From assembly GCF_014204715.1 (NCBI RefSeq), contig NZ_JACHLY010000001.1, positions 744,001 to 808,000 of the forward strand: a stretch of DNA of 64,000 bases, written 5' to 3'. This document shows, one piece after another, positions 9,843 to 27,653 of this stretch (its first letter is position 1; each line of letters starts with the position of its first letter). The position numbers and the translations under genes were made by a program. The notes beneath the pieces are model-generated. The model was not told the origin of the DNA and did no database searches. It saw only the letters and a program-made list of their open reading frames with translations. This DNA is from Streptomonospora salina. Its GTDB lineage: Bacteria; Actinomycetota; Actinomycetes; Streptosporangiales; Streptosporangiaceae.

Positions 9843-11285
9843 CTACAGCGCTACTCCGGGGAACGCCAGGACGCGCGGCTCGGTCAAGTCGGCCATTGCG
9901 GCCGACACCCCCTCGCGGCCCACGCCCGACTCCTTCACGCCGCCATAGGGCACGTGTTCGGCGCGGACGCTGGGCACGTCGCCGATGACCACGCCGCCGA
10001 CATGCAGCCGGGTGAGCGCGGCGAACGCGGTGTCGCTGCGGTGGGTGAACACCCCGGTCTGCAACCCGAACCGGGAGTCGTTCACCCGGTCGAACGCCTC
10101 ATCGGATCCCTCGACCTCGTCGATGGTGACGACCGGGCCGAATACCTCCTCGCAGGCGATTCTGGCCGTGGGCGGCACGCCCGTGAGCACAGTAGGCGCG
10201 TACTCGGCACCGTTGCGGCGCCCACCGGTGCGGACGCGCGCACCGGCGCCGACGGCCTCCTCGACCCATGCCTCCACCCGGCGGGCTGCGTTCTCGTCGA
10301 TGAGCGGTCCGACCTCGGTCTGCTCCTCGCGCGGGTCGCCTGTCCCCAGCGCCGCGACGCGCCTGACCACACGTTCTGTGAGTTCTTCGCCGACCGATCG
10401 GTCGGCGAAGACCCGCTGCACCGCTATGCAGGACTGCCCGGCCTGGTAATTGGCGAACACCGCGATGCGTTCCGCCGCCCGGTCCAGGTCCTCGGGCGTC
10501 GACCAGTCGGGGCAGACCACCGCTGCCGCGTTGCCGCCCAACTCCAGGGTGACGTGCTTGTGCGGGACGGCTTCCCTGATCGACCGGCCGACCGGTCCGG
10601 ACCCGGTAAAGGACACCACCGGCAGGGAGGGATCGGCGACCAGAGCCGGCATACGGTCGTTCTGGACGGGCACAACCGACCAGGCGCCGGAGGGCAGTCC
10701 CGTCTCCGCCAGCAGTTCCCCCAAGAGCAGCGCGCTCAGCGGCGCGCCCGGGGCGGGCTTGACGATGATGGGGGCGCCGACGGCCAGCGCCGGGGCGACC
10801 TTGTGCGCCACGAGGTTCAGGGGAAAGTTGAACGGAGTGATGCCCAGTACCGGTCCTCGCGGGAACCGGCCGACGAAGGCCGCCCCGCCCGGGGACTGGG
10901 GGTCGGTGTCGAGCCGCTGCCACTCTCCGCCGAACCGGCGGGCTTCCTCGGCGGCCCAGCGAAACACCGATGCGGCCCGGCCGGCCTCCGCCCGCGCCCA
11001 ACGCAGGGGTTTTCCGTTCTCCGCTGTGATCAGGCCGGCGATTTCCTCGCTGCGTTCGGCGATTCTCCCGGCCACGTGGTTGAGGGCCTCCGACCGCTCC
11101 GCGGCACTGGTGCGGGCGAACGGTTCGCCGGCGGTACGCGCGGCCGCGACCGCTTCGGCCACGTCGGCCTCGGATGCGATGGCGACGCGCGCCACCGAGG
11201 AGCCGTCGTAGGGGTGGGTGACCGGAATGGACTCCGTGCCGCGGCGCGCGGTGCCCGCGATCCAATAGGGAACCGGTGTTGTCAT
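9843..11285 (-). CDS. aldehyde dehydrogenase
   Basis: An NAD(P)+-dependent aldehyde dehydrogenase of 480 residues, full length. Active-site Asn153 (PFNFP), general base Glu248 (LELGGN) and nucleophile Cys286 (GQSCIA) are all present. It is closest in style to benzaldehyde/vanillin-type dehydrogenases, judged from ITPFNFPLNL and the C-terminal PYGGVKESGVGREG. ATG preceded by an SD (aggacggc). It is the last gene of the catabolic island, downstream of the LuxR gene. In context it would oxidise the aromatic aldehyde released by the hydratase-aldolase. The general reaction is secure; the substrate is inferred. Confidence 0.92.
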   Translation of the reverse strand: MTTPVPYWIAGTARRGTESIPVTHPYDGSSVARVAIASEADVAEAVAAARTAGEPFARTSAAERSEALNHVAGRIAERSEEIAGLITAENGKPLRWARAEAGRAASVFRWAAEEARRFGGEWQRLDTDPQSPGGAAFVGRFPRGPVLGITPFNFPLNLVAHKVAPALAVGAPIIVKPAPGAPLSALLLGELLAETGLPSGAWSVVPVQNDRMPALVADPSLPVVSFTGSGPVGRSIREAVPHKHVTLELGGNAAAVVCPDWSTPEDLDRAAERIAVFANYQAGQSCIAVQRVFADRSVGEELTERVVRRVAALGTGDPREEQTEVGPLIDENAARRVEAWVEEAVGAGARVRTGGRRNGAEYAPTVLTGVPPTARIACEEVFGPVVTIDEVEGSDEAFDRVNDSRFGLQTGVFTHRSDTAFAALTRLHVGGVVIGDVPSVRAEHVPYGGVKESGVGREGVSAAMADLTEPRVLAFPGVAL

Positions 11286-11564
11286 GCCGTCCTGCCTTCG
11301 GGGGTGCTGAGAATGTGCGGGCGCATGGGGACTGGGCGGTTCAGCGCCCGGCGCGGACGGCTCGCGGCGGTGGGGTTCGGGCAGGACACGGGTGGATATC
11401 TCCTGGATGAAGGGTGGGCCGGAACAGTGGCGCGAGGGCCGGACGCGGTTGTTCCGGCCCTTGGCTAGAGGAGGCTCTGCCCAGGAAGGTGGAGCCGTTT
11501 CCCGGGCGGGGACCGGGCCGTCGGCTGCGGTCTCCGGCCGATCCCGCCGGGGTGGGGGGCGAAC

Positions 11565-12647
11565 TCATTCCCCGGGAACGGGCGACCGTTCGCGGGAGGA
11601 CCAGATGAGTTGGACGAGTTCGGCACGGTTGTGCACGCTGGTCTTGGCGAAGATTCGTTTGAGGTGCTGCTTCACCGTGTTTTCGCTGACGAATGCTTTC
11701 TGCGCGATGTACTTGGTCGTGAGCCCTTGGCTGACGAGTGCGGCGATTTCCTGTTCCCGGGGAGAGAGTACCCCCCATGCCGGAAGTTCCGCGGACTCGT
11801 CGTCGACGACCTCATACAGCAGGCTGACGACCGAGCCCTTGACGGAATCGCGGTAGGACCGGACGATGATCTTCCGCCCGGATGCGTCGTCGCACACATT
11901 CGTGGTCCCGGTCTGCCCGCCGGATTCTGAGAATTCGGCTATCGCGCCGTCGACGAGGCTTTCCAGGTTAACGGGACCGTAATTTCCCGATGCACCGTGC
12001 AGGAACCCCATAATACGCTTTGCGCTGCGGTTGGCAAACAGCTTCTTTCCGTGGATGTCACTGACGACGACACCGTGCGGGAAGCGGTCGAGTGCCCCGT
12101 GGACCAGATACGCGTCCTCGACCAGTCCGCTCGCCCTGCGGATGCGTTCGATCGCCAGGCTCAGGTGTTCGCTGATGAGCCGCGCCAGGCTCAAGTCCTC
12201 TTCGCGGAAAGGCCGCCCGCCGGTTGCGCGAGCGAAGTTGATGGTGCCGACCACGCTCCCCGACTCGGTGATCGGGGCTTCCAAGGAGAAGGAGAGGCCT
12301 TCGCTGAGCAGGATCGATCTCGCTGCCGACGAGTGCCACCGCAGCGAACTCAGCATCACGTGGGAGTCTGCGGGGAGACCGTGCGCGAGAACGGCCTCCA
12401 GCACCGGATCGTCGCGGCGCCCCTGCTCCTCGTAGGTGTGCATGAAGACGTCGCTGAGAGTCGACGACCGCTCCAGTGGCGGGTCCGTGTCAGCCGCGAA
12501 ACGGTAGAACCCGATTCCGTCGGCCGGGAGCACTTCCTCCACGGTCGCGAAGTAGACGTCTCGAACGTCATCGATCGTCTGCGTGTCGTTGAGTTCGCGG
12601 GCGAATTTGAAGAATCCATTGTCAGTGAGGTCGACTTTTCCACTCAC
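11565..12647 (-). CDS. GAF-domain LuxR-family transcriptional regulator
   Basis: A 360-residue regulator. Residues about 20-175 form a GAF-like sensor domain (ending with the helix SLARLISEHLSLAIERIRR), about 185-280 a PAS-like linker domain, and about 290-350 a LuxR helix-turn-helix with LSPREQEIAALVSQGLTTKYIAQ and SENTVKQHLKRIFAKT. There is no receiver domain, so it probably binds an effector through GAF/PAS. The GTG start at 12647 follows a G-rich SD. It lies between the hydrolase operon and the aldehyde dehydrogenase and is the only regulator in the island, so it is the likely controller of the three catabolic operons. Confidence 0.9.
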   Translation of the reverse strand: MSGKVDLTDNGFFKFARELNDTQTIDDVRDVYFATVEEVLPADGIGFYRFAADTDPPLERSSTLSDVFMHTYEEQGRRDDPVLEAVLAHGLPADSHVMLSSLRWHSSAARSILLSEGLSFSLEAPITESGSVVGTINFARATGGRPFREEDLSLARLISEHLSLAIERIRRASGLVEDAYLVHGALDRFPHGVVVSDIHGKKLFANRSAKRIMGFLHGASGNYGPVNLESLVDGAIAEFSESGGQTGTTNVCDDASGRKIIVRSYRDSVKGSVVSLLYEVVDDESAELPAWGVLSPREQEIAALVSQGLTTKYIAQKAFVSENTVKQHLKRIFAKTSVHNRAELVQLIWSSRERSPVPGE

Positions 12648-12761
12648 CGGACCACCCCCAATTTGCCGACCGAAGGGCTACCCTGGCCAAATGCTACCCG
12701 ATCCGACGCAGCAAACATTAACGTTTGGGAAACGAATGTCGACTTTGCATTCCCGTTACCC

Positions 12762-12890: not shown

Positions 12891-14030
12891 TCAGATCCTG
12901 TGCAGCATCCAGTCGGCCAGCCTCGCCGCCGCGACGGCCAGGTAGTCGTAGTTGCAGTGCAGCGAACCGGCTCCGCTGTAATAGTCGACGGTCACGTCCT
13001 CGACGGTCAGCGCCGCCTGGAAACGACGCGCGCCTTCGATGTCCATGATGATGTCGTTCTCACCGTGCATGACGTATACCGGTACGTCCAGCTTTTCGGC
13101 GACGCCGTCGAGGGTGAAACGGGCGAGCTTCTCGCGGGCCTCGGCGTCGTCCTTCGTGCCGGACAGCCACTGGAGCTGCTCCTGCAGCGGCGGGTAGTAC
13201 TCGTAGAAGTCCGTCAGGATGCTCCAGGTGCCGCACCACGCAGCCACGGCCTTGACCCGGGGCTCGAAGGCCGCCGCGCGCGGCGCGTAGTACCCGCCGA
13301 AGCTGACTCCGGCGAGGCCGAGGCGGTCCATATCGATGTCGTCGCGCTCAGCCAGGAAGTCGAGGACGGCCTTCACGGGGACCTCGTAGTCGTGGCGGCT
13401 GTACATCTTCTTGAAGCGCAAGGAACTGCCGCGCCCGGGGGTGTCCACCATGACGACGTTCATTCCGCGGGCCGGGAACTCGGTCCCACCGAGGAAGTAC
13501 AGTTCCTCTGCCCACGAGTCGGCGCCGCCGAGCATGAGCACCGTGGGACGCTTCTGGCCGGAGGCGTCCGGGCGGACGACGTAGCCGTCCATCGTCTGGC
13601 CCTCGAACGGCACGCTGATCCGTTCGATGAGTCCGCCGGTGAGCTCCGCCGCCTTCTGGAAGTTCCGCGTCCCCTCGGTATAGGCCTCGTTCCTGCGCGG
13701 ATCGGTGGAGGGGAGGAAGAACTCGGAATGGCGCCAGTAGCTCATCGAGCGGAACAGAGCGCGGCGGCCGGTGGTGATGTCGCCCGCTTCCAGGGCGGCG
13801 CGGCCGGCCTCCGCAGTCTCCTTGGCGGTCCGGCTCCACTCCTGCTGCCAGACCTCGGTATCGGTCGTCTGCGTACCGATACGGGCCGCCGTGCGCGCAC
13901 ACTCGAACAGGTCGGATCCCCCGACTGCGACCTGGGCGAGGAGGCGCATCGTCTGCAGCGACCAGTCCTCGTGCTGGGGAAACAATTCGATGATGGACAG
14001 GGCGTCGCCCTGGAGTTCGGTCTCGGTCAC
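12891..14030 (-). CDS. alpha/beta hydrolase, dihydroxypseudooxynicotine-hydrolase-like
   Basis: A 379-residue hydrolase with a long helical N-terminal part (1-135) and a C-terminal alpha/beta-hydrolase domain. The nucleophile Ser243 is in GVSFGGYYA. An acid residue follows MHGENDIIMD, and the His is in SLHCNYDY. This two-part layout matches the DUF1100/2,6-dihydroxypseudooxynicotine hydrolase group, which cleaves C-C bonds of ketones on pyridine compounds. The GTG at 14030 is chosen because AGGAG lies five bases upstream. It is the last gene of the enamidase operon. In context it may cleave a C-C or ester bond of a ring-opened intermediate; the exact reaction is inferred. Confidence 0.82.
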   Translation of the reverse strand: MTETELQGDALSIIELFPQHEDWSLQTMRLLAQVAVGGSDLFECARTAARIGTQTTDTEVWQQEWSRTAKETAEAGRAALEAGDITTGRRALFRSMSYWRHSEFFLPSTDPRRNEAYTEGTRNFQKAAELTGGLIERISVPFEGQTMDGYVVRPDASGQKRPTVLMLGGADSWAEELYFLGGTEFPARGMNVVMVDTPGRGSSLRFKKMYSRHDYEVPVKAVLDFLAERDDIDMDRLGLAGVSFGGYYAPRAAAFEPRVKAVAAWCGTWSILTDFYEYYPPLQEQLQWLSGTKDDAEAREKLARFTLDGVAEKLDVPVYVMHGENDIIMDIEGARRFQAALTVEDVTVDYYSGAGSLHCNYDYLAVAAARLADWMLHRI

Positions 14031-14083
14031 GTCTACTCCTCTTGGTCGTTGCGGAATGGTTCTCGCGGACGGTTGACGGGTCC

Positions 14084-15277
14084 TCATCCTCCGATCCGCG
14101 ACGGCGCTTCACCGACGTCGTCCCAGCGGACCTGGTCGCGGATGGCGGTACGGTAACGGGCCAGTTCGCGGGGCGCGTTGACGCACACCGCACCCCTCAC
14201 CAGCCCGTCGCGCCCGTACAGCGCCACGAGCCTCTCGTCGTCGAACTCCTTGACGGCGACCTCGCTCGCCGCGGTCGCGCGCCCCACGAAGCGCATCCGG
14301 GCGTCGTACTGGTCGGTCCAGAAGTACGGGACCGCGCTGAAGGCTTCCCCTTCGCCCAGAAGGGTGTGGGCGGCGCGCCGCCCCTGTTCGACGGCGTTCG
14401 TCCAGTGCTCGACGCGGATCTCCTCGTCGAACAGCGGGTTGTACCAGCGTGCGACGTCGCCTGCTGCCACCACACCGGGCACCGAGGTCGACAGGTCGGA
14501 GTAGCAGAGCACCCCGTTGGCCGTCTGGACGCCGCTGCCGTCGAGCCACTCGGTGACCGGGCTCGCCCCGACCCCCGCCGCGACGACGTCGGCGTTGACG
14601 GTGCGCCCGTTGCTCAGCGTGAGAACGGCGCCCTCACCCTGGCGCTCGATCGTCTCCACGGTGCACGTGCAGACGATCTCCACCCCGTTGCGTGCGTGCA
14701 GGGTGCGGAACCAGGACCCGACTTCGTCGCCCAGAGCACGGCCCAGTGGGACCTGCCCGACCTCGATGATCGTCACGTCGAGCCCGAGGTGCCGGGCGGT
14801 CGCGGCGATCTCCAGCCCGATGAACCCGGCTCCGATGAGGACGAGGTGCCGGCCGGGGCGCAGGCGCTCGCGTAGCCGCAGACTGTCCTCGATCGACCGG
14901 AGGACCTGGACGGGTGGGGCGTTCTCCGTGCTGGGCAGGCGGCGCGGCCGTGAACCCGTCGCGATGACGAGGCCGTCGTATCCCGCTCTCGTGCCGTCGT
15001 CGAGCAGGATCGCGCGCCGCGCGGTGTCGAGCCCGACGGCGGCGCTCCCGATCCGGGTGGTTATGGCGTTGTCCGCGTACCACTCGGGTGCGCGAAGGCC
15101 CAGCCTCTCCATCGCCACACCGCTGATCAGCGCTTCCTTGGACAGGGGTGGCCGGTCATAGGGCAGTTCGTTCTCCGCTGAGATGAGCGTGACGTCGCCC
15201 TCGAACCCGCGCTCCCGGAGCGCCTCAGCGGCGTGCACTCCGGCCAGCGAACCCCCGACGACGGCGATCCGCCGCAT
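14084..15277 (-). CDS. ferredoxin--NAD(P)+ reductase (FAD)
   Basis: A 397-residue pyridine nucleotide-disulphide type reductase like those of aromatic dioxygenase and P450 systems. The FAD motif VVGGSLAGVHAAEALR is at the N-terminus. The second Rossmann motif for NAD(P)H is LIGAGFIGLEIAA (about 147-159), and the FAD-binding ATG (VIATGSRPRR) and GD (VVAAGDVARW) segments are in place. The ATG at 15277 starts one base after the ferredoxin stop (TAGCATG), so the two are translationally coupled. It would pass electrons from NAD(P)H through the neighbouring ferredoxin to the Rieske dioxygenase encoded about 9 kb upstream. Confidence 0.92.
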   Translation of the reverse strand: MRRIAVVGGSLAGVHAAEALRERGFEGDVTLISAENELPYDRPPLSKEALISGVAMERLGLRAPEWYADNAITTRIGSAAVGLDTARRAILLDDGTRAGYDGLVIATGSRPRRLPSTENAPPVQVLRSIEDSLRLRERLRPGRHLVLIGAGFIGLEIAATARHLGLDVTIIEVGQVPLGRALGDEVGSWFRTLHARNGVEIVCTCTVETIERQGEGAVLTLSNGRTVNADVVAAGVGASPVTEWLDGSGVQTANGVLCYSDLSTSVPGVVAAGDVARWYNPLFDEEIRVEHWTNAVEQGRRAAHTLLGEGEAFSAVPYFWTDQYDARMRFVGRATAASEVAVKEFDDERLVALYGRDGLVRGAVCVNAPRELARYRTAIRDQVRWDDVGEAPSRIGG

Positions 15278-15278: not shown

Positions 15279-15482
15279 CTAGGAACTCTCGATGGAGATC
15301 GCACGTGCGGGGCATCCTCGTACGGCCGCCTCGGCCTCGGCACGGCGGTCCTCGGCCGGGGTCTCGTCCAGAAGCACCGCCTTGTCGGTGCGGTCGTCGA
15401 GGTCGAACAGCCCGGGGCTCTCGATCAGGCAGTTCGCGTACCCCTGGCACGCGTCCGGATCGAGGACCAGCTTCATTCCCAT
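15279..15482 (-). CDS. 3Fe-4S ferredoxin
   Basis: A 67-residue small ferredoxin. Cysteines at about 13 and 19 (CQGYANC) and in GCPARAI near 57 give the C-x5-C...CP pattern of actinomycete single-cluster 3Fe-4S ferredoxins, with the middle Cys of a 4Fe-4S motif missing. A strong SD (ggaggtga) precedes the ATG. It starts 35 bp after the enamidase stop and is coupled to the reductase. Ferredoxins of this kind serve P450s and also some actinobacterial ring-hydroxylating dioxygenases such as phenanthrene dioxygenase. No P450 is in the window. Confidence 0.93.
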   Translation of the reverse strand: MGMKLVLDPDACQGYANCLIESPGLFDLDDRTDKAVLLDETPAEDRRAEAEAAVRGCPARAISIESS

Positions 15483-15517: not shown

Positions 15518-16717
15518 TCAGTGAGCGCTCGATTCCAGGTGCGGGATCCGCGGCGCGACAGGTGCGCTGCGCGCGGAAGCGGGGGTGTTGCGGCTTCTCA
15601 ACGCGCGAACGCCGCCCGCGGTGATGACCGCGGAGATTCCCGGGATGTCGCCGACGGCGAGCGCATCACGCGCGCTGCCGCGGGTCGATCCCCACGGTGC
15701 GTCCATGACGACGAGGTCGCCCGCCCGTCCCGCGGCGACCACGCCGGCGGGCAGGTTCCATGTGCGGGCGTTGTTGCCCGAGGCGGCCGCCCACACGAGC
15801 GCGGGGTCCAGTCCGGTCAGCGACGCGAGTTCGGCGACGGTCTTGATCACCCCCAGGGGCATGACGCCGGTGCCGGTGGGCGTGTCCGATCCGATGACGA
15901 CCCGGGACAGGACGTCCTGCCGGGCCGCGCGTTCGAGGATCCGCACAGCCGATCTGAGGTTCCCGGCTTGGACCAGTTGGAGCGCCATGCCGGTCTCGTC
16001 CATGATCGTGTCGACCCCGTCGGGGTCCAGCGATGTCGGTCCGCCGTTGATGTGACCGCACACGTCCGGCGCCAGCGCCAGCAAGTGCTCGGGCGTGATC
16101 GGCTTGCTGCCCGGGATACTTGCTCCGCCCGAGTGGCACATGACCGTGATGCCGTGCTGTTTGGCCCACCTGACTTGGTCGGCCCCTTCAGCGGGGTCCA
16201 TGTAGCGTCCGAAGCCGAACTTCGCGAGGACGACGCCGGCCTCCTCGAGTTCGGCGAAGTCGCGCTCCTGGAGCGTCGGCTCCAGGACCACGGAACCGGC
16301 GTGGACGGTCATCCCGCCGGGATGGAAGTTCTCGAAGCAGGCCCGTGCGGCGATGGCCAGCGCCTTGACGCCAACTGCGGTGTGCGGGCGTCCCGGTGCG
16401 TGGATCTCCCCGGGACTCACAACGCTGGTTATCCCGCCGTGGACGTAGCCGGCCAGGAAGTCGACGGTCTTCTGCCGCGGCGTGTAGTCACCGAGCACGA
16501 CGTGGCAATGGGAGTCGATGAGTCCCGGCGCGATGGTCGATCCCTGTGCGTCGACAACGGTGTCGGCGCCCTCGATCGCGGTTCGCAGATCCCGCGCGTT
16601 GCCGACGCGGCTGATCACGCCGTCGGTCACGACGACGGTGTCGGCTCCGTCCACGATGGGCGCTTCGATGTCGCCCGAGAAGACGGTGGCGGCCCCGGTG
16701 ACGGCGAGCGTGTTCAT
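15518..16717 (-). CDS. enamidase-like amidohydrolase
   Basis: A 399-residue metal-dependent amidohydrolase strongly resembling Eubacterium barkeri enamidase, which opens 6-oxo-1,4,5,6-tetrahydronicotinate to 2-formylglutarate in anaerobic nicotinate fermentation. Shared marks are metal His70 and His72 (DSHCHV), GDYTPRQKT just after, GHINGGPTSL, MDETGMALQLVQAGN, and a tail with AVGDIPGISAVITAGG and SRNTPAS. The metal Asp is in GSDTPTG. ATGA overlap with the upstream PF06684 gene shows translational coupling. In this island it would hydrolyse a cyclic enamide/lactam formed from a nitrogen ring. Homology recalled, not searched. Confidence 0.82.
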   Translation of the reverse strand: MNTLAVTGAATVFSGDIEAPIVDGADTVVVTDGVISRVGNARDLRTAIEGADTVVDAQGSTIAPGLIDSHCHVVLGDYTPRQKTVDFLAGYVHGGITSVVSPGEIHAPGRPHTAVGVKALAIAARACFENFHPGGMTVHAGSVVLEPTLQERDFAELEEAGVVLAKFGFGRYMDPAEGADQVRWAKQHGITVMCHSGGASIPGSKPITPEHLLALAPDVCGHINGGPTSLDPDGVDTIMDETGMALQLVQAGNLRSAVRILERAARQDVLSRVVIGSDTPTGTGVMPLGVIKTVAELASLTGLDPALVWAAASGNNARTWNLPAGVVAAGRAGDLVVMDAPWGSTRGSARDALAVGDIPGISAVITAGGVRALRSRNTPASARSAPVAPRIPHLESSAH

Positions 16718-17301
16718 TGCGCCCCGCCCTTCTCAGCGGCCTCGGCCACGCTCATGCCGCCGACCCGCGCGTTGAGCCGGCCGCGGTTGGCCACCACGGC
16801 GATGATGACGAGCTCATCCGGGTGGGGCGCGTCGGGAACGCGGATCTGCACGCCGTCGTAGTGGCTGCGCACCCAGACGTCGTCCTTGTAGGCGGTCGGT
16901 ACGTCGATGACGTCGCCGGCGGCCGCGGGTTTGGTCATGGAGGTGATCCAGGCCTTCCCACCGCCGATGGCCTCACGGAAGGCGTTGCCGAAGACCGAGG
17001 TCAGGGCCGCGTTGACGTGCTCCTGTTCCCCTTCCGAGCCCACGAGTCCGCCCTTGCCGTAGCTCTCCGCCGGCTCCCCGAGAAGGCGGGCGGCCTCCAC
17101 CCCCAGGGACCGCCCCACCTCGCCGGAGGCGCCGATGACGGCGGAGAGGTCGTCGACGTACCCCCGTCCTGCATACGGGTTCCGGACAACCGCGCAGACG
17201 GCGACCCTGCGCAGTTCCTTCCCGTCCGAGCTGCCTGCCGACGAGCGGATCTCCTCGATCTGGGCAAAGGTCTTTCGGACCTCAAGCGGCGAGTCGGCCA
17301 C
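16714..17301 (-). CDS. amino acid synthesis family protein (PF06684/DUF1185)
   Basis: A 195-residue protein of the PF06684 family. Members with known structure have a chorismate-mutase-like fold, and the family is thought to act in amino-acid-related metabolism, but no reaction is established. Visible conserved parts are RRVAVCAVVRNPYAGRG near residue 32, the GKGGLVG turn near 82 and the conserved HEHVNAAL-like EQEHVNAAL stretch. The GTG start follows AAGGAGG at good spacing. It is the first gene of the enamidase operon and overlaps enamidase by ATGA. A likely enzyme or chaperone for the same nitrogen-ring intermediate; that is inference. Confidence 0.85.
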   Translation of the reverse strand: MADSPLEVRKTFAQIEEIRSSAGSSDGKELRRVAVCAVVRNPYAGRGYVDDLSAVIGASGEVGRSLGVEAARLLGEPAESYGKGGLVGSEGEQEHVNAALTSVFGNAFREAIGGGKAWITSMTKPAAAGDVIDVPTAYKDDVWVRSHYDGVQIRVPDAPHPDELVIIAVVANRGRLNARVGGMSVAEAAEKGGAQ

Positions 17302-20880: not shown

Positions 20881-22536
20881 TCAGTGGCCGGCGAAGTCCT
20901 GATCGGCCCAGGGGCCGACCACCGTCGGATCGATCCGGACGTCGAGGACGAGAACACCGCGCGGTTCGGCGAACCAGTCGGCGGCCTGCGCGAGGTCGTG
21001 CTGCTCCCGGACCGTCACGGCGCGCGCGCCGGCGCCCCGGGCGATCCCCGCGATGTCCGCGTCGGGGAACCGCACGAGGTCGAGTCCGGAACCGTGGTGG
21101 AAGAAATGGTGGACCTCTGCGCCGTAGGCGCGGTCGTCGTAGACCACGACCAGGACGTCGAGGTTCAGGCGGACGAGGGTCTCGAGTTCCGATACCGCCA
21201 TGAGGAACCCGCCGTCACCGGTGGCGAGGACGGTGAGCCGGTCGGGTCGGGCCACGGCCGCACCCGCGGCGGCGCCCAGGCCCAGCCCGATGGACTGGAA
21301 CCCTGCGCTGGTGAAGACGAACCCGGCGGGGTCGGGCACGGACCACCCCATCGCCGGCCAGCCGATGAAGTGGCCGCCGTCGAGCACGACCGAGCGCTCG
21401 GCGGGCAGCATCTCCTCCAACCGGGCGGTGATATCGGCGGGATGGCAGGTGCCCTCGGATGCGCCCTCGGCGGAGGGCCGGGGCGCAACCGGGGCGGCGG
21501 ATCGTTCGACCGGGCCGAACCGGCTTGCGCCGGGACGGTCGCCGACCTCGGCCAGCAGCGCGCATACCGTGGCGTCGGCGTCTGCGACGATGCCGACGTC
21601 GACGTGTCCGTTGCGGCCGAGGGCGCTGTGTTCCCGGTCGATCTGGACCACCTTGACCGGACCGCGGAAGATCGTGTCCCCGCGCGTCGTCCAGGTCGTG
21701 AGCGTGGCGCCCAGCGCCACGATGAGGTCGGCGGACTCCAGCGTCTCCACCGCGGCGGGGTCGGAGAACCCTCCCGCGATACCCACGTCCCGGGGGTGTC
21801 CGGTGAACATGCCCTTGACGACCGCGGTCGTCGCGAGGCGTGCCCCGACCCTGTCGGCGAGCGCGGCGGTCGCCGCGCGGGCGCCCGACAACCAGGCGCC
21901 CCGGCCCGCGAGGAGGACGGGACGGCTGGCGGACAGCAGGTCCTCGGCCAGTTCGGCGAGGACGTGGGCCGCCGGTTGCGGACGCCCCGCAGGCTCCAGG
22001 ACCGCGACCGGGTCCTCGGGGGAGAGCGCGGTGGCGGCCTGCACGTCCAGCGCCATGTTGAGGACGACCGGACGCTGCTCGTCGATGGCCCGGCGAAAAG
22101 CGCGGGCCGTGTCGGCCGTGACCGTGTCGGGCCGGTGCAGATGCTCGGCCGCCCCGCCGGCGGCGGTGATCAGGGCGGCCTGTTCGAGGTAGAAGTTGGA
22201 ACGGGTCATGCCGGCCGATGTCGCCCCCGCGATGACCACGACCGGGCTCCGGCTCTTGGCGGCCTCCGCGAGTGCCGTCAGGGTGTTGGTCAGGCCCGGC
22301 CCCTGGTGGACGCTGCAGGCGGCGATCCGCCCCGTGGTGCGCCAGTGCGCGTCGGCCATGGCCAGGGCACCCGCCTCGTGGCGGGCGCCGGCGAACCGCG
22401 CCCCGCTTCGGACGAGCGCGTCGGTGGCGACGAAGTTGCCGCTGCCCACGACCCCGTAGACGGTGTCGATCCCGCAGGCGGCGAGCGTCGCCCCGACCGC
22501 TTCGGCCCCGTTGGAGGCCCTTCCGGTCACGCTCAT
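20881..22536 (-). CDS. thiamine diphosphate-dependent enzyme (2-oxo acid decarboxylase-like)
   Basis: A 551-residue ThDP enzyme of the acetolactate synthase/benzoylformate decarboxylase family with the three usual domains: N-terminal PYR domain with the cofactor-activating Glu54 (ARHEAGALAMA), a central domain, and a C-terminal PP domain with the metal/diphosphate motif GDGGFLMAVSELETL near 430. The usual NN ending of that motif is replaced by YDDRAYG. The ATG overlaps the dehydrogenase stop (ATGA). It is the last gene of the dioxygenase operon. It may decarboxylate or ligate a 2-oxo acid formed after ring cleavage. The exact reaction is unknown. Confidence 0.87.
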   Translation of the reverse strand: MSVTGRASNGAEAVGATLAACGIDTVYGVVGSGNFVATDALVRSGARFAGARHEAGALAMADAHWRTTGRIAACSVHQGPGLTNTLTALAEAAKSRSPVVVIAGATSAGMTRSNFYLEQAALITAAGGAAEHLHRPDTVTADTARAFRRAIDEQRPVVLNMALDVQAATALSPEDPVAVLEPAGRPQPAAHVLAELAEDLLSASRPVLLAGRGAWLSGARAATAALADRVGARLATTAVVKGMFTGHPRDVGIAGGFSDPAAVETLESADLIVALGATLTTWTTRGDTIFRGPVKVVQIDREHSALGRNGHVDVGIVADADATVCALLAEVGDRPGASRFGPVERSAAPVAPRPSAEGASEGTCHPADITARLEEMLPAERSVVLDGGHFIGWPAMGWSVPDPAGFVFTSAGFQSIGLGLGAAAGAAVARPDRLTVLATGDGGFLMAVSELETLVRLNLDVLVVVYDDRAYGAEVHHFFHHGSGLDLVRFPDADIAGIARGAGARAVTVREQHDLAQAADWFAEPRGVLVLDVRIDPTVVGPWADQDFAGH

Positions 22537-23315
22537 GCGGCACTCCCGGCATCGGTGTTGATGACGATCCCGGTGACGACCCGGGCGGCGCTCGGATCGG
22601 CGAGATAGGCGTAGGCGCCGCTGTGGTCCTCCGGCCGCGGCGTGACTCCGAGGACGTTGCTGCGGGCGATGCGTTCGTCGCGCCCCGCTATCCGGTCCGC
22701 CGTCGAATCTTGGCCGAGCGACCGCAGTCCGCCGAAGCGCGTGCCGCCGGTCCCGCCCGGCGCGACACCGTTGACCCGGACTTCCGGTGCGAGGTCGGCC
22801 GAGAGGTGGTCCACGACTCCCCGCAGCGCCCACTTCGAACTGCCGTAGAGCACGCCGCCGCCACGCGGGCGGTACGCCGACTCCGACAGCGTCAGCGTCA
22901 CCGAGCCGCGGGCCGCCTTCAGCGCCTCATAACACACGTTGACCGCCTTCAGCGAGCTGAGGACGTTGGTGCGCCACATTTCCTCACCCGCCGATTCCAA
23001 CTCGGCCGCGGTGAGGTCGCGCACAGACACGTAGTTGTCGAAGACCCCGACACAGGCGGTGAGGTGGTCGAGGCCGCCGCCGTCGTTGCGCGCGGCGGCC
23101 AGCGTCTCGGCCAGGGAGTCGCCGTCCATGGCGTCGCCGACGACTACCCGGAGGAGGTCGCCGCCGAGGCGGCGCAGCGCGTCGGCGTGCTCGTGGGATC
23201 GCTCCAGCACCGTGACGCGGGCCCCGAGGGCGAGGTAGCGCCGGCAGACGGCCTGCCCGATACCCGATCCGCCCCCGGTGACCAGCATGCTCAGTCCTTG
23301 CAGGCCCCCGTTCAC
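22533..23315 (-). CDS. cis-dihydrodiol dehydrogenase (SDR, BphB-like)
   Basis: A 260-residue short-chain dehydrogenase of the BphB group, which oxidises arene cis-dihydrodiols to catechols with NAD+. TGGGSGIG is at 13-20; catalytic Ser144 (TLSES), Tyr157 and Lys161 (YGSSK) are present. The segment CVGVFDNYVS resembles the GIWDY-like loop typical of dihydrodiol dehydrogenases. The GTG start overlaps the upstream stop (GTGA). It lies directly downstream of the dioxygenase genes, where it would rearomatise the dihydrodiol product. Confidence is high for the reaction class, lower for the ring. Confidence 0.9.
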   Translation of the reverse strand: MNGGLQGLSMLVTGGGSGIGQAVCRRYLALGARVTVLERSHEHADALRRLGGDLLRVVVGDAMDGDSLAETLAAARNDGGGLDHLTACVGVFDNYVSVRDLTAAELESAGEEMWRTNVLSSLKAVNVCYEALKAARGSVTLTLSESAYRPRGGGVLYGSSKWALRGVVDHLSADLAPEVRVNGVAPGGTGGTRFGGLRSLGQDSTADRIAGRDERIARSNVLGVTPRPEDHSGAYAYLADPSAARVVTGIVINTDAGSAA

Positions 23316-23590
23316 GGTGCCGGGCTCCGCGCCAGCAGGGACGTGATGAACTCCGGTTCCTGGTAGCTCAGACAGTCCAGCGCGACCGCGTCGAAGCGGA
23401 CGCAGGTGTTGTGCTTGGGCGAGAAGATCTCCAGCCGCATCCCGTTGCGGGTGTGGACTTTGCGTACGACGACGTCGACGAACTCGTTGGCCACGACGAT
23501 GGGGCCGTCGCCGCCTCTGTCGCGCGGGTAGTGGAGAACCTCGCCGTCGTCGGGGTTCTCCGCCTCTGGTGTGGGAACGGCTTCATTCAT
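23312..23590 (-). CDS. small conserved dioxygenase-associated protein
   Basis: A 92-residue soluble protein without a known fold. The core is IVVANEFVDVVVRKVHTRNGMRLEI followed by RFDAVALDCLSYQ (about residues 30-82). I recall similar 90-residue proteins between dioxygenase and dihydrodiol dehydrogenase genes in actinobacteria, sometimes labelled dihydrodiol dehydrogenase although far too short to be one. SD AAGGAG seven bases before the ATG. Its stop overlaps the dehydrogenase start. A helper for the dioxygenase or its product is a guess from position. Confidence 0.75.
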   Translation of the reverse strand: MNEAVPTPEAENPDDGEVLHYPRDRGGDGPIVVANEFVDVVVRKVHTRNGMRLEIFSPKHNTCVRFDAVALDCLSYQEPEFITSLLARSPAP

Positions 23591-23611: not shown

Positions 23612-24127
23612 TCAGAGGAGGATCGACAGGTTGTGCCCGTTGATGACGGACTGGTCGAGCACGGCGTAGCGCCGCGCCAGCAGCAGTCCGCCGTCCACGC
23701 GGCGGACCGTGTCCGTGCGGGCGACCGAGTAGAAGTTCGGTTCGATGCTGTCGCCTCGGCTCCGGTAGATGAGGCAGTTCGACGACACGACGAGTTCGTC
23801 CTCCCGTTCGCCGGGGTCGGCCACGACGTTGGCGACGTAGTGGCGCGCGCGTGACGGCGGCTGCTCCGCCCAGGCGAAGTCCGTCTCCAGCCGCTCGACC
23901 CGCAGCGTGAGCGTCTGCTTGTCGTCGTCGAAGATCCTGGACGTCGGGGAGACCTCCCACTCGGCCTGGTCCTCGCGGGTCACCCGGAGCGGCACCTCGT
24001 AGCGGACGTCGTCCGTCAGGCAGTCGAGCCAGTCCCGGAAACGGCGTTCGTCGAGTGCGCGGGCTTCCCGGTAGAGGAAGTCGGCGACGTCGAAAACGGT
24101 GTCGCGGTCCGGTTTCGTCGATGCCAT
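23612..24127 (-). CDS. aromatic-ring-hydroxylating dioxygenase beta subunit
   Basis: A 171-residue small subunit of a Rieske dioxygenase (NTF2-like fold). Typical features: the N-terminal helix DVADFLYREARALDERRFRDWLDCLTDDVRYEVP, the central RLETDFAWAEQPPSRARHYVANV, and the C-terminal LLLARRYAVLDQSVI. It has no catalytic metal and packs against the alpha subunit. The ATG at 24127 lies 5 bp after the alpha stop. Length and pattern agree with the naphthalene/biphenyl dioxygenase class. Confidence 0.94.
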   Translation of the reverse strand: MASTKPDRDTVFDVADFLYREARALDERRFRDWLDCLTDDVRYEVPLRVTREDQAEWEVSPTSRIFDDDKQTLTLRVERLETDFAWAEQPPSRARHYVANVVADPGEREDELVVSSNCLIYRSRGDSIEPNFYSVARTDTVRRVDGGLLLARRYAVLDQSVINGHNLSILL

Positions 24128-24132
24128 GCCGA

Positions 24133-25449
24133 TCACACCCGCCCGGTCATGTAGTCGGACCACCGGGACCACAGGTTCCGGAAGTTGGAGTCGTTGACGT
24201 AGGGCGTGACCACGTGCCCGGGCCCGGGGAAGTCGGGGTCCCGGGGGCTTTCCATGCCCATGACGTAGGGGAACTCGATGTTTCTGGCCATGGTCGACCC
24301 GGCGGAACGGGTCACGCGCGCCCAGTTCTCCAGGTCGTCCTGCTCGAAGGTCCCCGCCTGGGCGAAGGCGAGCGTGTAGGCGCGGTAGGCCTCCCGCTTG
24401 TACTCCTCCGAGGCGTCCTTGGGGACCAGGCACCAGGAGTACATCTCGGTCTTGCCCGGACCGATCGGGTGGTAGAGCCGCATAGTCACGAACCGCACGC
24501 CCGTCTGCCCCGGTATGACACTGAACGGCTGCATCAGGAAGGACAGGTTGGGGAACACGGTTCCGACCGCGGTCCGGGTCTGGGAGAAGACCTCGACCTG
24601 CTGCGGCGACAGGCTGTGCCGCATCTCCTCGGCGAGTTCCTCGGGGAACCCGGCGAAGGGCGGGAAGCCCGGCGTGTGGCCGAGCCCGATGCCGTGCCCC
24701 TTCCCGGGGATGCTCGCCGCCCAGCCCTGGCCGTGCGTCGAGCCCGAGGAGGCGAAGTAGCCGAGGTTGAACCCGAACTGGTGGGCGACCGGGGTGTGGT
24801 AGCCGTCGCCCGAGAAGTTCTCGGCGGCGATCTTCCAATCGGTCTCCGTCACCCAGTGGTCGGGGGGACCGTGCACCTCGCTGCCGGAGGAGCCCTGCTT
24901 GAGGTAGAGGTCCAGGTAGAACTGGAACCCCCCGAGGTACTCGTCCAGCGGCGGCGCGTCCGGGTCGAGCGTTCCGAACAGCAGGCCCGCGTAGGTATCG
25001 GTACGTACTTTGACCAGGCCCCAGTCGCGCTTGTCGATCCTGCCCCCGTAACCCTCCTTCATGTAGGGGACCCCGACGAGCTCTCCGGAGTTCTTGTAGA
25101 CCCATCCGTGATACGAGCAGCGGAAGTGGGAGGCGTTGCCCATCTCGGATTTGCACATCATGTTGCCGCGGTGGCGGCACATGTTGAGACTGGCGTGGAT
25201 CTCCCCCGACTCGGCGCGGGCGACGATGAGGTTGTTGTTCGCTATATAGCGCGTGACGTAGTCACCGCGGTTGGGGATCTCGGACTCGTGGGCGAGAAAG
25301 CACCAGGCCTTGGAGAACACGCGGTGCTGCTCGATGTCGAAGATCTCCTGGTCGTTGAAGACCCGAGCCGGGAACCGCCCTTCGGCGATGCCGTCTCTGA
25401 TGCCTTCGAGGCCCGCTTCGACGCCGGTACCTGTGGGCTGCGTCGCCAT
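24133..25449 (-). CDS. aromatic-ring-hydroxylating dioxygenase alpha subunit
   Basis: A 438-residue catalytic subunit. The Rieske 2Fe-2S site is complete: Cys91, His93, Cys111, His114 (CRHRG...CSYHGW). The bridging Asp215 and mononuclear iron ligands His218 and His223 are in ENFSGDGYHTPVAH. The third ligand Asp lies in the EQDD motif near 371. It inserts both atoms of O2 to form a cis-dihydrodiol. Three bp separate it from the hydratase-aldolase stop. No Rieske ferredoxin is adjacent; the 3Fe-4S ferredoxin at 15279 is the likely donor. Overall form is that of polycyclic aromatic dioxygenases, but the substrate cannot be read from sequence. Confidence 0.96.
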   Translation of the reverse strand: MATQPTGTGVEAGLEGIRDGIAEGRFPARVFNDQEIFDIEQHRVFSKAWCFLAHESEIPNRGDYVTRYIANNNLIVARAESGEIHASLNMCRHRGNMMCKSEMGNASHFRCSYHGWVYKNSGELVGVPYMKEGYGGRIDKRDWGLVKVRTDTYAGLLFGTLDPDAPPLDEYLGGFQFYLDLYLKQGSSGSEVHGPPDHWVTETDWKIAAENFSGDGYHTPVAHQFGFNLGYFASSGSTHGQGWAASIPGKGHGIGLGHTPGFPPFAGFPEELAEEMRHSLSPQQVEVFSQTRTAVGTVFPNLSFLMQPFSVIPGQTGVRFVTMRLYHPIGPGKTEMYSWCLVPKDASEEYKREAYRAYTLAFAQAGTFEQDDLENWARVTRSAGSTMARNIEFPYVMGMESPRDPDFPGPGHVVTPYVNDSNFRNLWSRWSDYMTGRV

Positions 25450-25452
25450 GGC

Positions 25453-26511
25453 TCACACCTTCTCGGCGGTCCGGGACGAGGAGGCGCCCAGATGCGCCTC
25501 GATTTCGGCGGTGATCTGCTTGTAGCGCTCGACGTGCTCCTGCGTCGTCTTGTGGTGGGCCTCGGGAACGAGGTCCTCGGTGTAGGGCACCCGGCTCTTG
25601 CCGACGTCCATGTAACCGGCGGCGTTGACGCGGATCTTCTCGAGGGGGACGTTGTACTTCGCGAACTCGAAGAAGTCCTGTCCGACGATGAAAGGCTCGT
25701 GGGCCCACCGCAGGCGCTCCGTCAGCCAGCGGGCGTCCTCGGTGCGCCCCTCGCGCAGGGCGTCGCGCAGTGCGAGGACGGGAGCCGGTCCCATGGCGGT
25801 GGTCGACGACCACGCCATTCCGACCAGGTCCTCGCCGTACATCTCCCAGGCCGGGAACCAGTCGGTCTCGATCGGCATCAGGGGGAAGCTCGTCTGCGTG
25901 TGGGCCATGTCGTTGTGGTAGCGGAACCCGACCGAAGCGCCTCCGGCGTACTTGACCGCCACCACCTGGGGCAGTTCCACGAGGGTGCGGTAGACGGAGC
26001 GCGGGATGACACCCCCGAAGGCGGCCGTGTTGTCGTAGACGACGATGGCCATTTCGGGCACCGCCTCGGCAACCTGCCGGTAGAACCTTTCCATGATCGG
26101 CGCGACCATGTCCCCCCACATGGGGCGGCCGAGCAGGGTCCCGGTGACTCCGAGGTCCGCCAGGAACCGCATCCGCTCGATGGTGTCGCGGGTGTTGAGC
26201 GTGGTGGCGCCGACGAAGACGGGGAAGTCGGGGTTCTCCGACTGCGCAGTCTCGGCGACGCAGGAGGCGTAGGCCTTCCACTCGTCCAGGGTCAGCGTGT
26301 GCATCTCGCCGAGCGTGCCGTTGGTGGCGATCGCGTCCACCCCGTCGCGGATGAGGGACCGGATCATGCGCTCGGTCTCTTCGAGATTCACCGTGTTCTC
26401 GGCATCGACCAGGTCCGCTCCCGGGAGCGCGGGGGTAGGGGGATAGGCCATGACGCCGCGCATGTCGCGACCGGTCACCTTGGGAAGTCTGCTGATCATG
26501 GGGTCACTCAC
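25453..26511 (-). CDS. hydratase-aldolase (DHDPS superfamily, PhdJ/NahE-like)
   Basis: A 352-residue member of the dihydrodipicolinate synthase superfamily. It resembles trans-o-hydroxybenzylidenepyruvate and 2-carboxybenzalpyruvate hydratase-aldolases, which hydrate an aryl-CH=CH-CO-COOH side chain and split it into aldehyde plus pyruvate. Visible marks: NGTLGEMHTLT (the GTLGE phosphate-free variant), TTLNTRDTIERMRF, VYDNTAAF with the Tyr, and the Schiff-base Lys in VVAVKYAGG. GTG at 26511 or ATG at 26499 may be the start. It lies between ligB and the dioxygenase genes, so its substrate is probably made by LigAB. Confidence 0.9.
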   Translation of the reverse strand: MSDPMISRLPKVTGRDMRGVMAYPPTPALPGADLVDAENTVNLEETERMIRSLIRDGVDAIATNGTLGEMHTLTLDEWKAYASCVAETAQSENPDFPVFVGATTLNTRDTIERMRFLADLGVTGTLLGRPMWGDMVAPIMERFYRQVAEAVPEMAIVVYDNTAAFGGVIPRSVYRTLVELPQVVAVKYAGGASVGFRYHNDMAHTQTSFPLMPIETDWFPAWEMYGEDLVGMAWSSTTAMGPAPVLALRDALREGRTEDARWLTERLRWAHEPFIVGQDFFEFAKYNVPLEKIRVNAAGYMDVGKSRVPYTEDLVPEAHHKTTQEHVERYKQITAEIEAHLGASSSRTAEKV

Positions 26512-26556
26512 CTTCTACTCGGTGTTGAACGGCGAACTCGGGGGCACGGACGGGTT

Positions 26557-27402
26557 TTACAGCCGCGCGGCCGCGACCGCGGTCCCGGTGAGCCACTCGG
26601 GAACCGGCTCGTAGGCCAGGACGTCGAACGGCACCTGGACCGCGCCCGCCGCCACGAGCCACGTCCGGATTTCGTGGGCGCCGTTTCCGGCGGCGTCGAT
26701 CTCCTCGGCGGTGTAGGAGAGGAGGCGGTTCTCGTCGGCGTTCTCGAACCGGTCGATGAATTCGCGGTCGAACTCCTCGTTGACCTTGCCCGACTCCGGA
26801 AGGCCCACCCAGTGGGACAGGCCGCCCGTGCCGACGACGACCACCCGCTGGGCCTCAGTCTGCGCCTCGACCGCGCGGCGGATCATCCGTCCGAAGTCGT
26901 GGCAGCGGCTCACGGTCGGCCAGGGCGGGTTGACCCCGTTGACGATGATGGGCACGAGGGGGTATTTCGACTCGGGATCGAGGTGTTTGAAGGGGACGCA
27001 GAAATTCTCGTCGAACTCCAGTCCGCCTTCCACCAGGGCGGGGTCGAAATCCGCCTGCAGGGCGAACTCGTACACGTGCCGGCCGAGTACGGAGTGTCCG
27101 GGGTACTGGCGCTGCGTGACGTTGAGGAATTCCCCCATTTCCTTGGTGACCGGCCCCAGATACGAGTCGCTCGTCGCGACGGCGAACGCCGGGAGGTTTC
27201 CCAGGTGGAAATTGGTGAAATGCTCGACGGATACGGCGATGATCGCGTCGGGCGCGAGTGCGTCGATTCGCTTCTGAACCTCGGTGAACGCCGATTCCAC
27301 CGCCTCGCGCTTAGCGGGCTCCGCACGTTCGGGCCATGCCGTGATGCCGGGTGAGTGCGAAGCGGTAAAGGCACCCACGACACGTCCGGTGGTCTCGGCC
27401 AT
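26557..27402 (-). CDS. class III extradiol ring-cleavage dioxygenase beta subunit (LigB-like)
   Basis: A 281-residue LigB-superfamily catalytic subunit. Predicted Fe(II) ligands are His16 (ASHSPG), His61 (VEHFTNF) and Glu244 (GAHEIRTW). The acid-base His197 (GLSHW) is present, all at positions close to those in Sphingobium LigB. It cleaves a catechol next to one hydroxyl (meta cleavage) using O2. Its ATG overlaps the ligA stop (ATGA). The alpha/beta pair as separate genes is the same arrangement as protocatechuate 4,5-dioxygenase and 2-aminobiphenyl-2,3-diol dioxygenase. The actual catechol is inferred to be the dehydrogenase product. Confidence 0.94.
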   Translation of the reverse strand: MAETTGRVVGAFTASHSPGITAWPERAEPAKREAVESAFTEVQKRIDALAPDAIIAVSVEHFTNFHLGNLPAFAVATSDSYLGPVTKEMGEFLNVTQRQYPGHSVLGRHVYEFALQADFDPALVEGGLEFDENFCVPFKHLDPESKYPLVPIIVNGVNPPWPTVSRCHDFGRMIRRAVEAQTEAQRVVVVGTGGLSHWVGLPESGKVNEEFDREFIDRFENADENRLLSYTAEEIDAAGNGAHEIRTWLVAAGAVQVPFDVLAYEPVPEWLTGTAVAAARL

Positions 27403-27653
27403 CAGTTCTTCTCCCCCCGTATCTGGGCGTAGTAGTCAGCACGGTCAACCTTCAACTGGATCGCGCAGAAATAGATCAGGTAGGGGTTGAACCCGCGCTC
27501 GTGCATGGCTTTGAAGTCGAGTCCGCGCATAGCCGCGCGGTCTCCGCCCGCGATACCGTAGGAATCGAGTATCGGGTCCGGGTCTGCGAGGTACCGTTCC
27601 GCCAGGTCCGGGTCCTTGCGGATATCCCACAGCAGTTTGTGGAGGCTGTACAC
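27402..27653 (-). CDS. extradiol dioxygenase alpha subunit (LigA-like)
   Basis: An 83-residue LigA-domain protein, the small helical partner that caps the LigB active site. It shows LHKLLWDIRKDPDLAERYLADPDPILDSYGI, the glycine-rich ALTPEE-equivalent loop, RAAMRGLDFKAMHERGFNPYLIY and a short tail. The GTG at 27653 is chosen because it gives the usual LigA length with an SD-like gaggaagg upstream. First gene of the dioxygenase operon; operator-like element C lies 160 bp upstream. Confidence 0.9.
   Translation of the reverse strand: MYSLHKLLWDIRKDPDLAERYLADPDPILDSYGIAGGDRAAMRGLDFKAMHERGFNPYLIYFCAIQLKVDRADYYAQIRGEKN

Follow-up and report, generated by a model that had tools for sequence, protein, structure and literature searches.

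A conserved gene cluster of Streptomonospora salina predicted to degrade a fused N-heterocyclic acid, possibly kynurenate

We asked what compound is degraded by a catabolic gene cluster of Streptomonospora salina that encodes both a Rieske ring-hydroxylating dioxygenase and an enamidase-like amidohydrolase. The cluster studied lies at positions 9843-27695 of the window, by which we mean the whole 64-kb stretch of DNA analysed (744001-808000 within a 5.6 Mb genome; G+C 66-75% in 2-kb steps). A fused N-heterobicycle of some kind is a likely substrate, and kynurenate (4-hydroxyquinoline-2-carboxylate) is our best single guess, held tentatively. Kynurenic acid is a common, neuroactive product of tryptophan. 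The chemistry of its breakdown by bacteria was established around 1961-63, and a 1961 title appears in the reference list of PMC11354673; among the literature matches listed, mostly from the open literature with few subscription journals, we found no genes assigned to the kynurenate 7,8-diol pathway. The gene families, the active-site residues of five enzymes, a separate clade of alpha subunits and a conserved neighbourhood are observations, and from these sequence data we infer the reactions, their order and the substrate.

Gene ends were fixed from reading frames, and families were assigned by Pfam, NCBIfam and PDB sequence searches. Consistent with the one-strand arrangement described in an initial annotation of this DNA, all of the cluster genes lie on the minus strand, from that for LigA to that for an aldehyde dehydrogenase (ALDH), mostly with short gaps or overlaps. 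The junctions measure 1 base for LigA/LigB and DctP/DctQ and 4 bases for orfX/dihydrodiol dehydrogenase, dihydrodiol dehydrogenase/thiamine diphosphate (ThDP) enzyme, PF06684 protein/enamidase-like protein and reductase/hydrolase. The annotation had given the extent as 9843..27653; the left end holds, while LigA starts near 27695 instead. Each family on its gene list was confirmed by Pfam or, for the enamidase-like protein and the hydrolase resembling 2,6-dihydroxypseudooxynicotine (DHPON) hydrolase, by a PDB match.

For attack on a carbocyclic ring, the cluster encodes the alpha subunit (24133..25449; PF00355, PF00848; PDB 2b1x, E=2e-119) and beta subunit (23612..24127; PF00866, E=1e-38; NCBIfam NF007479, 182 bits against a cut-off of 145) of a Rieske ring-hydroxylating dioxygenase, together with a single-cluster ferredoxin (15279..15482; PF13459, E=2e-11), whose homologue at locus L003 is annotated as ferredoxin, and a ferredoxin-NAD(P) reductase (14084..15277; PF07992, PF14759; NF042949 HcaD, 301 bits, below the cut-off of 450). 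The start codon of the reductase is uncertain, its frame staying open to 15343. These are joined by a cis-dihydrodiol dehydrogenase, an HcaB/BphB-like short-chain dehydrogenase/reductase (22533..23315; NF004849, 240 bits, below the cut-off of 330; NF042950, 189 bits), and by a class III extradiol dioxygenase consisting of a LigA-like small subunit (27402..27695; PF07746, E=1e-8; start codon uncertain) and a LigB-like catalytic subunit, the presumed ring-cleavage enzyme (26557..27402; PF02900, E=3e-37; PDB 1b4u, E=7e-21). A hydratase-aldolase of the PhdJ/NahE kind (25453..26511; PDB 6dan PhdJ, E=1e-70) lies between LigB and alpha. A Rieske-type dioxygenase, a dihydrodiol dehydrogenase and an extradiol dioxygenase encoded together match the kynurenate 7,8-dioxygenase pathway at the level of families. 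His16, His61 and His197 of LigB were present in 25/25 rows and Glu244 in 24/25, with one gap; we take these to be the Fe ligands (His, His, Glu) and the catalytic His. In the hydratase-aldolase, Lys187 and Tyr159, presumably the Schiff-base Lys and the Tyr of the PhdJ/NahE kind, were likewise kept in 25/25 rows.

We placed the alpha subunit in a quick tree of 44 rows, taken from those recovered by tblastn (at least 37% identity, plus L033, L034 and L049). The window alpha and 27 others formed one 28-member clade (Shimodaira-Hasegawa-like approximate likelihood-ratio test, SH-aLRT, 100), and the enzyme of a Rhodococcus naphthalene plasmid (L007) fell outside it. A position deep within a clade for nitrogen-free substrates, which the initial annotation had named as a possible outcome, was thus not what we found: in this tree, which includes few characterised enzymes, gave long-branch warnings mostly for outside rows and leaves the sister group unsettled, the alpha is not nested among hydrocarbon (naphthalene-type) enzymes. 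Its nearest named relative is that of Streptomonospora alba (91%), and the hosts of the clade belong to the Actinomycetota and Thermomicrobiota, with one unclassified bin.

To compare neighbourhoods, contigs of other genomes were scanned with an alignment of three alphas, and 76 loci were kept. Two peptide patterns had picked up 512 relatives, of which these loci are a part, and the clade is therefore at least as large as given here. The alpha was at least 60% identical in 22 of the 76 loci (L008-L028 and L071), which, with plasmids L003 (Rhodococcus sp. USK13) and L004 (Thermomicrobium roseum) and with L125, L127 and L128 from genomes of the window's own family, made up a comparison set of 27. 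By coordinates G141, G026 and G267 repeat L008, L021 and L018 and were counted once, and L018 and L097 are one cut-off cluster. The identity cut-offs for gene counting were chosen after the first neighbourhood comparison; genes outside the retrieved stretches (usually 10 kb per side) were scored as not seen, which depresses the counts for the tripartite ATP-independent periplasmic (TRAP) importer, the ThDP enzyme, the LuxR regulator and ALDH most, and extra stretches of the same genomes were included where retrieved.

Alpha and beta were present in all 27 loci, the dihydrodiol dehydrogenase in 26, orfX and the enamidase-like gene in 25 each, the PF06684, LigB and PhdJ-type aldolase genes in 24 each, LigA in 23, the ferredoxin in 19, the reductase in 17 and the DHPON-hydrolase-like gene in 16. 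Counts were lower for the accessory genes (ThDP enzyme 14, LuxR 13, DctP 12, DctM 12, ALDH 11). Since most of the gene set recurs around 27 other members of the alpha clade, the cluster is not a chance assembly. An aldolase of the dihydrodipicolinate synthase (DHDPS) type was found in 27/27 loci, with L022-L024 carrying another DHDPS-type protein instead of the PhdJ type. LigB was not found in three of the 27: L018, where the cluster is shortened and cut by the contig end, and L004 and L025, both Thermomicrobia. The latter two encode a VOC-family protein, whose L004 version has an N-terminal domain like that of catechol-2,3-dioxygenase, and which probably replaces LigAB as a different extradiol enzyme. 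We counted such swaps of single steps (LigAB, PhdJ-type aldolase), with the remaining genes persisting, in favour of the proposed pathway. In the draft bin of L021, the enamidase-like, PF06684 and hydrolase genes lie together on a contig other than that of alpha, while the other counted loci share alpha's contig. In eight loci whose alphas fall outside the clade (L005, L006, L007, L029, L030, L031, L072 and L081) and whose flanks differ in length, the enamidase-like, PF06684, LigA and DHPON-hydrolase-like genes were each found in 0/8, and a weak LigB match (25-26%) was found in two (L007, L031).

The association also held across 297 genomes of the window's family: 7 have alpha (E<=1e-130), 12 have the enamidase-like gene (E<=1e-60) and 6 have both (hypergeometric P = 7e-9, ignoring the relatedness of the genomes). 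The seventh alpha genome, G267, is that of the shortened Nonomuraea cluster. Six other genomes carry an enamidase-like gene (38-62% identity) without a clade alpha; gene settings were read in three of these. Both the joint occurrence of LigAB, aldolase, dioxygenase and enamidase genes and the pairing of enamidase with dioxygenase in other genomes, on which the initial annotation had made its reading depend, were therefore borne out.

Several loci were damaged. In L018/L097, from Nonomuraea aridisoli, a beta fragment is followed by fragments of a molybdenum-enzyme subunit, and the dehydrogenase was not found; in L026 and L027, alpha and some neighbours match in two or three separate frame pieces, reflecting frameshifts or sequencing errors. 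The record of L081 is titled Rhodococcus sp. JCM 9791 and its lineage table gives Cyanobacteriota, a label or assembly mix-up.

The gene for the enamidase-like amidohydrolase (15518..16717), a presumed pyridone or lactam ring opener, encodes a near full-length homologue (residues 7-387 of 399) of the enamidase of Eubacterium barkeri nicotinate fermentation (PDB 2vun, E=1e-106). Enamidase hydrolyses the enamide bond of a tetrahydro-oxonicotinate-type lactam. H70, H72, H195, H222 and D278, which we take to be the five metal ligands, were kept in 26/26 clade rows. The adjoining gene (16714..17301) encodes a protein of family PF06684 (DUF1185, chorismate-mutase-like fold; PF06684, E=2e-58; PDB 2qtp, E=3e-37; 3byq, E=4e-26). 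On plasmids L090 and L091, relatives of the enamidase-like gene lie near a 6-hydroxynicotinate reductase gene and two PF06684 genes, a setting that fits a pyridone. More broadly, in 7/11 relatives outside the clade the stretch with the enamidase-like gene also holds PF06684; of the four relatives without PF06684 seen, L089 was covered by 25 kb and three by only ~4 kb. Judging from these settings, PF06684 and enamidase-like proteins look like a module for opening N-heterocycles that is used with several different upper pathways. Structures of PF06684 proteins have been published, and the excerpted text of that report only suggests a role in amino-acid metabolism (PMC2954203).

Some of these settings hold further genes. 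The nicotinate-type clusters of L090 and L091 also include a UPF0280 gene, a family that may belong to pyridone metabolism as well. At L121 (G208:C83:184500-204000), ferredoxin, reductase, DHDPS-type, VOC, PF06684 and enamidase-like genes accompany a Rieske system of another kind (alpha 38%). The enamidase-like protein encoded there clusters with the one from L022, and the locus gives another example of ring dioxygenation coupled to this lower module. In L120 (G088), an enamidase-like gene (62%) and PF06684 lie beside genes for DUF1989, isochorismatase, a second amidohydrolase and a class III aminotransferase.

In the pathway that we propose, the TRAP system, where present, would import the substrate, and the Rieske dioxygenase, served by the ferredoxin and reductase, would convert its carbocyclic ring to a cis-7,8-dihydrodiol, which the dihydrodiol dehydrogenase would re-aromatise to the 7,8-diol. 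LigAB would cut the C8-C8a bond, C8a becoming the lactam carbonyl of a pyridone that bears the old side chain, and the hydratase-aldolase would free pyruvate to leave 5-formyl-4,6-dihydroxypicolinate, with the formyl group at pyridone C3. The DHPON-hydrolase-like enzyme would strip this group to yield 4,6-dihydroxypicolinate; in other lineages a molybdenum hydroxylase, often with a crotonase, could oxidise it to an easily lost carboxylate. The enamidase-like and PF06684 proteins would open the ring of the resulting enamide, 4-hydroxy-2-pyridone-6-carboxylate, giving ammonia and 2,4-dioxoadipate, and the ThDP enzyme and ALDH may process keto acids. The shared ancestry of the alpha, aldolase (50% identical to that of L007) and dihydrodiol dehydrogenase with naphthalene-type clusters fits a bicycle. 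That the cluster degrades kynurenate or a close 4-oxygenated quinoline acid by this route is quite possible, though short of probable.

We next considered the fate of the formyl group, since two gene types alternate at this point in the clade. The DHPON-hydrolase-like alpha/beta hydrolase (12891..14087), a presumed acyl or formyl remover, matches the DHPON hydrolase of nicotine degradation (PDB 2jbw) over residues 71-347, just at E=1e-26. Ser262, Asp345 and His377, which we take to be the catalytic triad of the DHPON hydrolase kind, were kept in 16/17 rows, with one gap. DHPON hydrolase cleaves the ring-bound acyl group of an acyl-dihydroxypyridine, whereas the window enzyme may act on a formyl group; such a removal is plausible because the formyl would sit on a dihydroxypyridine as the acyl group does in DHPON, provided that the quinoline carried an oxygen at C4, as kynurenate does.

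The DHPON-hydrolase-like gene was present in 17/28 rows, including the window, and a molybdenum-hydroxylase large subunit in 7/28 (L004, L015, L017, L018, L019, L025 and L028), while none had both. If the two were independent this lack of overlap would have P = 3e-4, although related rows are not independent; on the alpha tree, at least 3 switches between the types are needed, 2 of them forced by strongly supported branches. The molybdenum large subunit gene sits after that of the dehydrogenase (in L018, in pieces after the shortened beta). Where downstream DNA was present, molybdenum-type clusters hold genes for small and medium subunits and crotonases (L019, L123, L124) or for crotonases (L004, L025), and the crotonase genes adjoin the PF06684 and enamidase-like genes; a PDB search of the crotonase returned broad families only. 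The molybdenum subunit belongs to the CoxL/quinoline 2-oxidoreductase family (PDB 1t3q, 508 bits), and six molybdenum rows have a PYRGAGR loop rather than the AYXCSFR loop of CO dehydrogenase. Since we take this loop to separate hydroxylase-type enzymes from CO dehydrogenase, the latter identity was ruled out. Distant molybdenum genes near L023 and L024 (41%) were left out when the clade's own type was counted.

When 14 genomes or records were searched for the hydrolase at E<=1e-40, matches came from those of L008, L009, L021 and, weakly, L018 (39%, partial); the remaining 10 gave none, and among them are six of the seven molybdenum-type rows (for L004, the plasmid record only). Taken together, this pattern suggests that the hydrolase and the molybdenum enzyme are two ways past one step. 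Either way the product would be 4,6-dihydroxypicolinate, an enamide in its keto form, so the two could interchange while the enamidase-like gene stays. Separately, a small carboxymuconolactone-decarboxylase-family gene occurs near 5/27 loci of both types (L014, L016, L071, L123 and L124), the copies being 76-81% identical to that of L123.

A number of observations weigh against the proposed pathway or against kynurenate as its substrate. The enamidase-like gene was not found at E<=1e-60 in the genomes of L018, the shortened cluster, and L028, a draft bin. L022-L024 have neither alternative for the formyl step, and L020 has only a 33-amino-acid piece of the molybdenum subunit at a contig edge. 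The exclusion is imperfect genome-wide, since G006, which has the hydrolase, also contains, on a different contig, a stretch matching the molybdenum enzyme at 55% identity; G026, by coordinates apparently the same genome, is rated 7% contaminated. No kynurenine-pathway genes were recognised among the 20 flank proteins scanned (part of the flanking open reading frames) or in the annotated flanks of plasmids L003 and L004; tryptophan dioxygenase (PF03301), present in 281/297 family genomes, is uninformative on kynurenine supply.

The enamidase-like protein itself also departs from its model. Position 166, presumably that of the bridging residue, which would be Glu in nicotinate-type enzymes, is Lys in 26/26 clade rows, as it is in the alphaproteobacterial relatives L088 and L092 and in L117-L121, whereas it is Glu in 2vun, L089, L090, L091 and L122. 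We call the protein enamidase-like because of this replacement, which suggests that its substrate may differ from that of the E. barkeri enzyme; in contrast to the 6-hydroxynicotinate reductase plasmid clusters, no 6-hydroxynicotinate reductase was recognised in the window cluster. The reaction cannot be deduced from relatedness to enamidase either. KpiC, which acts in the degradation of 4-hydroxypyridine by Arthrobacter IN13 and which we likened to the window protein by description, belongs to the amidohydrolase family and shares 28% identity with enamidase, yet is reported in the portion of the article available to cleave the dihydroxypyridine ring oxidatively (PMC7356986).

Nor does the gene set match the known chemistry in full. 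The dioxygenation, dihydrodiol dehydrogenation and 8,8a cleavage of the classical Pseudomonas kynurenate pathway, whose enzymes we take to be EC 1.14.99.2, 1.3.1.18 and 1.13.11.10, fit the window genes, so this part of the route given in the initial annotation agrees with the gene families. The classical route, however, reduces the oxo-propenyl side chain and retains it, and is not known to include an aldolase. Family searches recognised no reductase for this side chain in the cluster, where a hydratase-aldolase is present instead; this conserved enzyme would remove pyruvate, so even breakdown of kynurenate itself would here follow a modified route. The broader claim of the initial annotation, a bicycle with a nitrogen ring, is upheld, a fused N-ring acid being well supported because the alpha clade is separate and the enamidase-like gene co-occurs with it; kynurenate is just the best guess within that claim.

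Substituent positions cannot be read from the genes, and 2-oxoquinoline would fit nearly as well. Another N-heterobicycle degraded by the same logic (quinaldate, 2-oxoquinoline, quinoline-4-carboxylate, isoquinolone or an indole acid) is accordingly a serious possibility, if not one we would call probable. Cleaved in the same way, 2-oxoquinoline would give 3-formyl-2,6-dihydroxypyridine, which is also near the DHPON hydrolase substrate, and the molybdenum enzyme, with its kinship to quinoline 2-oxidoreductase and its hydroxylase-type loop, could be an upper-pathway ring hydroxylase in some clusters. An upper-pathway enzyme, however, would be free to coexist with the DHPON-hydrolase-like gene, whereas the two share no row. 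In addition, the TRAP importer, where present, favours an acid, and indole would yield a five-membered lactam rather than a dihydroxypyridine.

The steps could also follow a different order from that proposed, with ALDH or the molybdenum enzyme oxidising the formyl group and the hydrolase or crotonase cleaving a beta-diketone after ring opening. Such an order would account for crotonases beside PF06684 and the enamidase-like gene in 5/27 loci, all of the molybdenum type, and for ALDH genes in 11/16 hydrolase-type loci other than the window. We consider it unlikely, since DHPON hydrolase acts on a ring-bound acyl group and 9 of those 11 ALDHs are paralogues 30-36% identical to that of the window; among the 27 loci, L008 and L127 alone have ALDH at 80% identity or more.

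A nitrogen-free bicyclic aromatic acid of the naphthoate or coumarin type, with the enamidase-like and PF06684 genes as passengers, would agree with naphthalene and phthalate dioxygenases being the nearest solved dioxygenases and with the nearest aldolase being PhdJ of phenanthrene degradation. The Nar and Phd upper pathways for naphthalene and phenanthrene in Rhodococcus and Mycobacterium likewise have Rieske alpha and beta, orfX, dihydrodiol dehydrogenase and hydratase-aldolase genes close together (plasmid pNAPH, L007). However, the L007 alpha is just 46% identical and lies in a separate clade, and the window adds LigAB and pyridone-opening genes. We set this very unlikely reading aside on the separate alpha clade and on the company that the enamidase-like and PF06684 genes keep with alpha (25 and 24 of the 27 loci, and the overlap among the 297 genomes).

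Breakdown of lumichrome or another quinoxaline is most improbable: the lum pathway of Nocardioides simplex shares the Rieske, xanthine-oxidase-like molybdenum-hydroxylase (some loci), ThDP and extradiol classes and acts on an N-heterobicycle, but, in the part of the report available, it depends on a P450, LumU, as well as on a ThDP enzyme made of two subunits (LumK/LumL, 20 and 23 kDa), and its Rieske product is already a benzene catechol that needs no dihydrodiol dehydrogenase (PMC12746152), whereas we found no P450 among the 20 open reading frames scanned at 9843-31127, a ThDP enzyme of one chain whose gene was not seen in 13/27 loci, and conserved dihydrodiol dehydrogenase and enamidase-like genes instead. 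The lum pathway was set apart by description, not by sequence.

Returning to the proposed pathway, we propose that its novelty lies in joining a naphthalene-type upper pathway to a pyridone-opening lower pathway. If the kynurenate reading is true, the long-orphan kynurenate steps become testable from a handful of expressed genes. The fullest version is possible yet doubtful: that genes for the aerobic breakdown of kynurenate are identified here for the first time, acting by an aldolase and deformylation route, with PF06684 as the partner of a pyridone-opening, Lys-type enamidase subfamily and with DHPON-hydrolase-like and molybdenum enzymes interchangeable. If it is true, sequences would be in hand for kynurenate dioxygenase, its dihydrodiol dehydrogenase and 7,8-dihydroxykynurenate dioxygenase. 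If the substrate is instead another quinoline acid, the cluster would still join two known modules in a combination not met in the literature matches listed and would still tie PF06684, an uncharacterised family, to the opening of N-heterocyclic rings.

Between beta and the dihydrodiol dehydrogenase lies orfX (23312..23590), which encodes a conserved 92-amino-acid protein with no Pfam or NCBIfam match; it was absent from the initial gene list and was added here. In the clade, on the naphthalene plasmid and on thermophile plasmids (seen, besides the window, at L004, L005, L006 and L007), it follows the Rieske beta gene, also adjoining dioxygenases from outside the alpha clade. Across 14 sequences, its NEF motif was invariant and TxNGxRL nearly so.

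The remaining genes of the cluster are accessory. The ThDP-dependent enzyme (20881..22536), of the decarboxylase or lyase kind, has three TPP-enzyme domains on its single chain and begins with an ATG that overlaps the dihydrodiol dehydrogenase gene; a PDB search matched acetolactate-synthase-like proteins (E=4e-43) and returned broad families only. The TRAP importer comprises a solute-binding protein, DctP (19382..20452; PF03480, E=1e-30), a small permease, DctQ (18876..19382; PF04290, E=4e-15), and a large permease, DctM (17518..18810; PF06808, E=1e-83). A GAF-LuxR regulator (11565..12647; PF00196, PF13185) and the ALDH (9843..11285; PF00171, E=2e-132) complete the set.

Finally, we compared the flanks of the cluster with other genomes of the genus. 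The left flank with its tRNA cluster (5600-9200) was present at 77-87% in 5/5 other genus genomes searched, while the right flank (28600-32300) was found as a whole in 0/5; in G160, by coordinates, ~37 kb separate this tRNA cluster from the catabolic genes. Because the left tRNA flank is conserved while the DNA to the right of the tRNA genes varies, the term island fits. A repeat of the tRNA-Val 3' end marking a far island edge was not found within the window. A 67-base copy of the tRNA-Val 3' region (window 8733-9119) recurs in G043, G093, G120 and G141; in G043, G120 and G141 it is on the same contig, ~7-78 kb beyond the conserved tRNA cluster, as integrating elements leave. Further along the window, positions 46543-51328 encode a sugar-type ATP-binding cassette importer and a zinc alcohol dehydrogenase, which are unrelated to the catabolic cluster.

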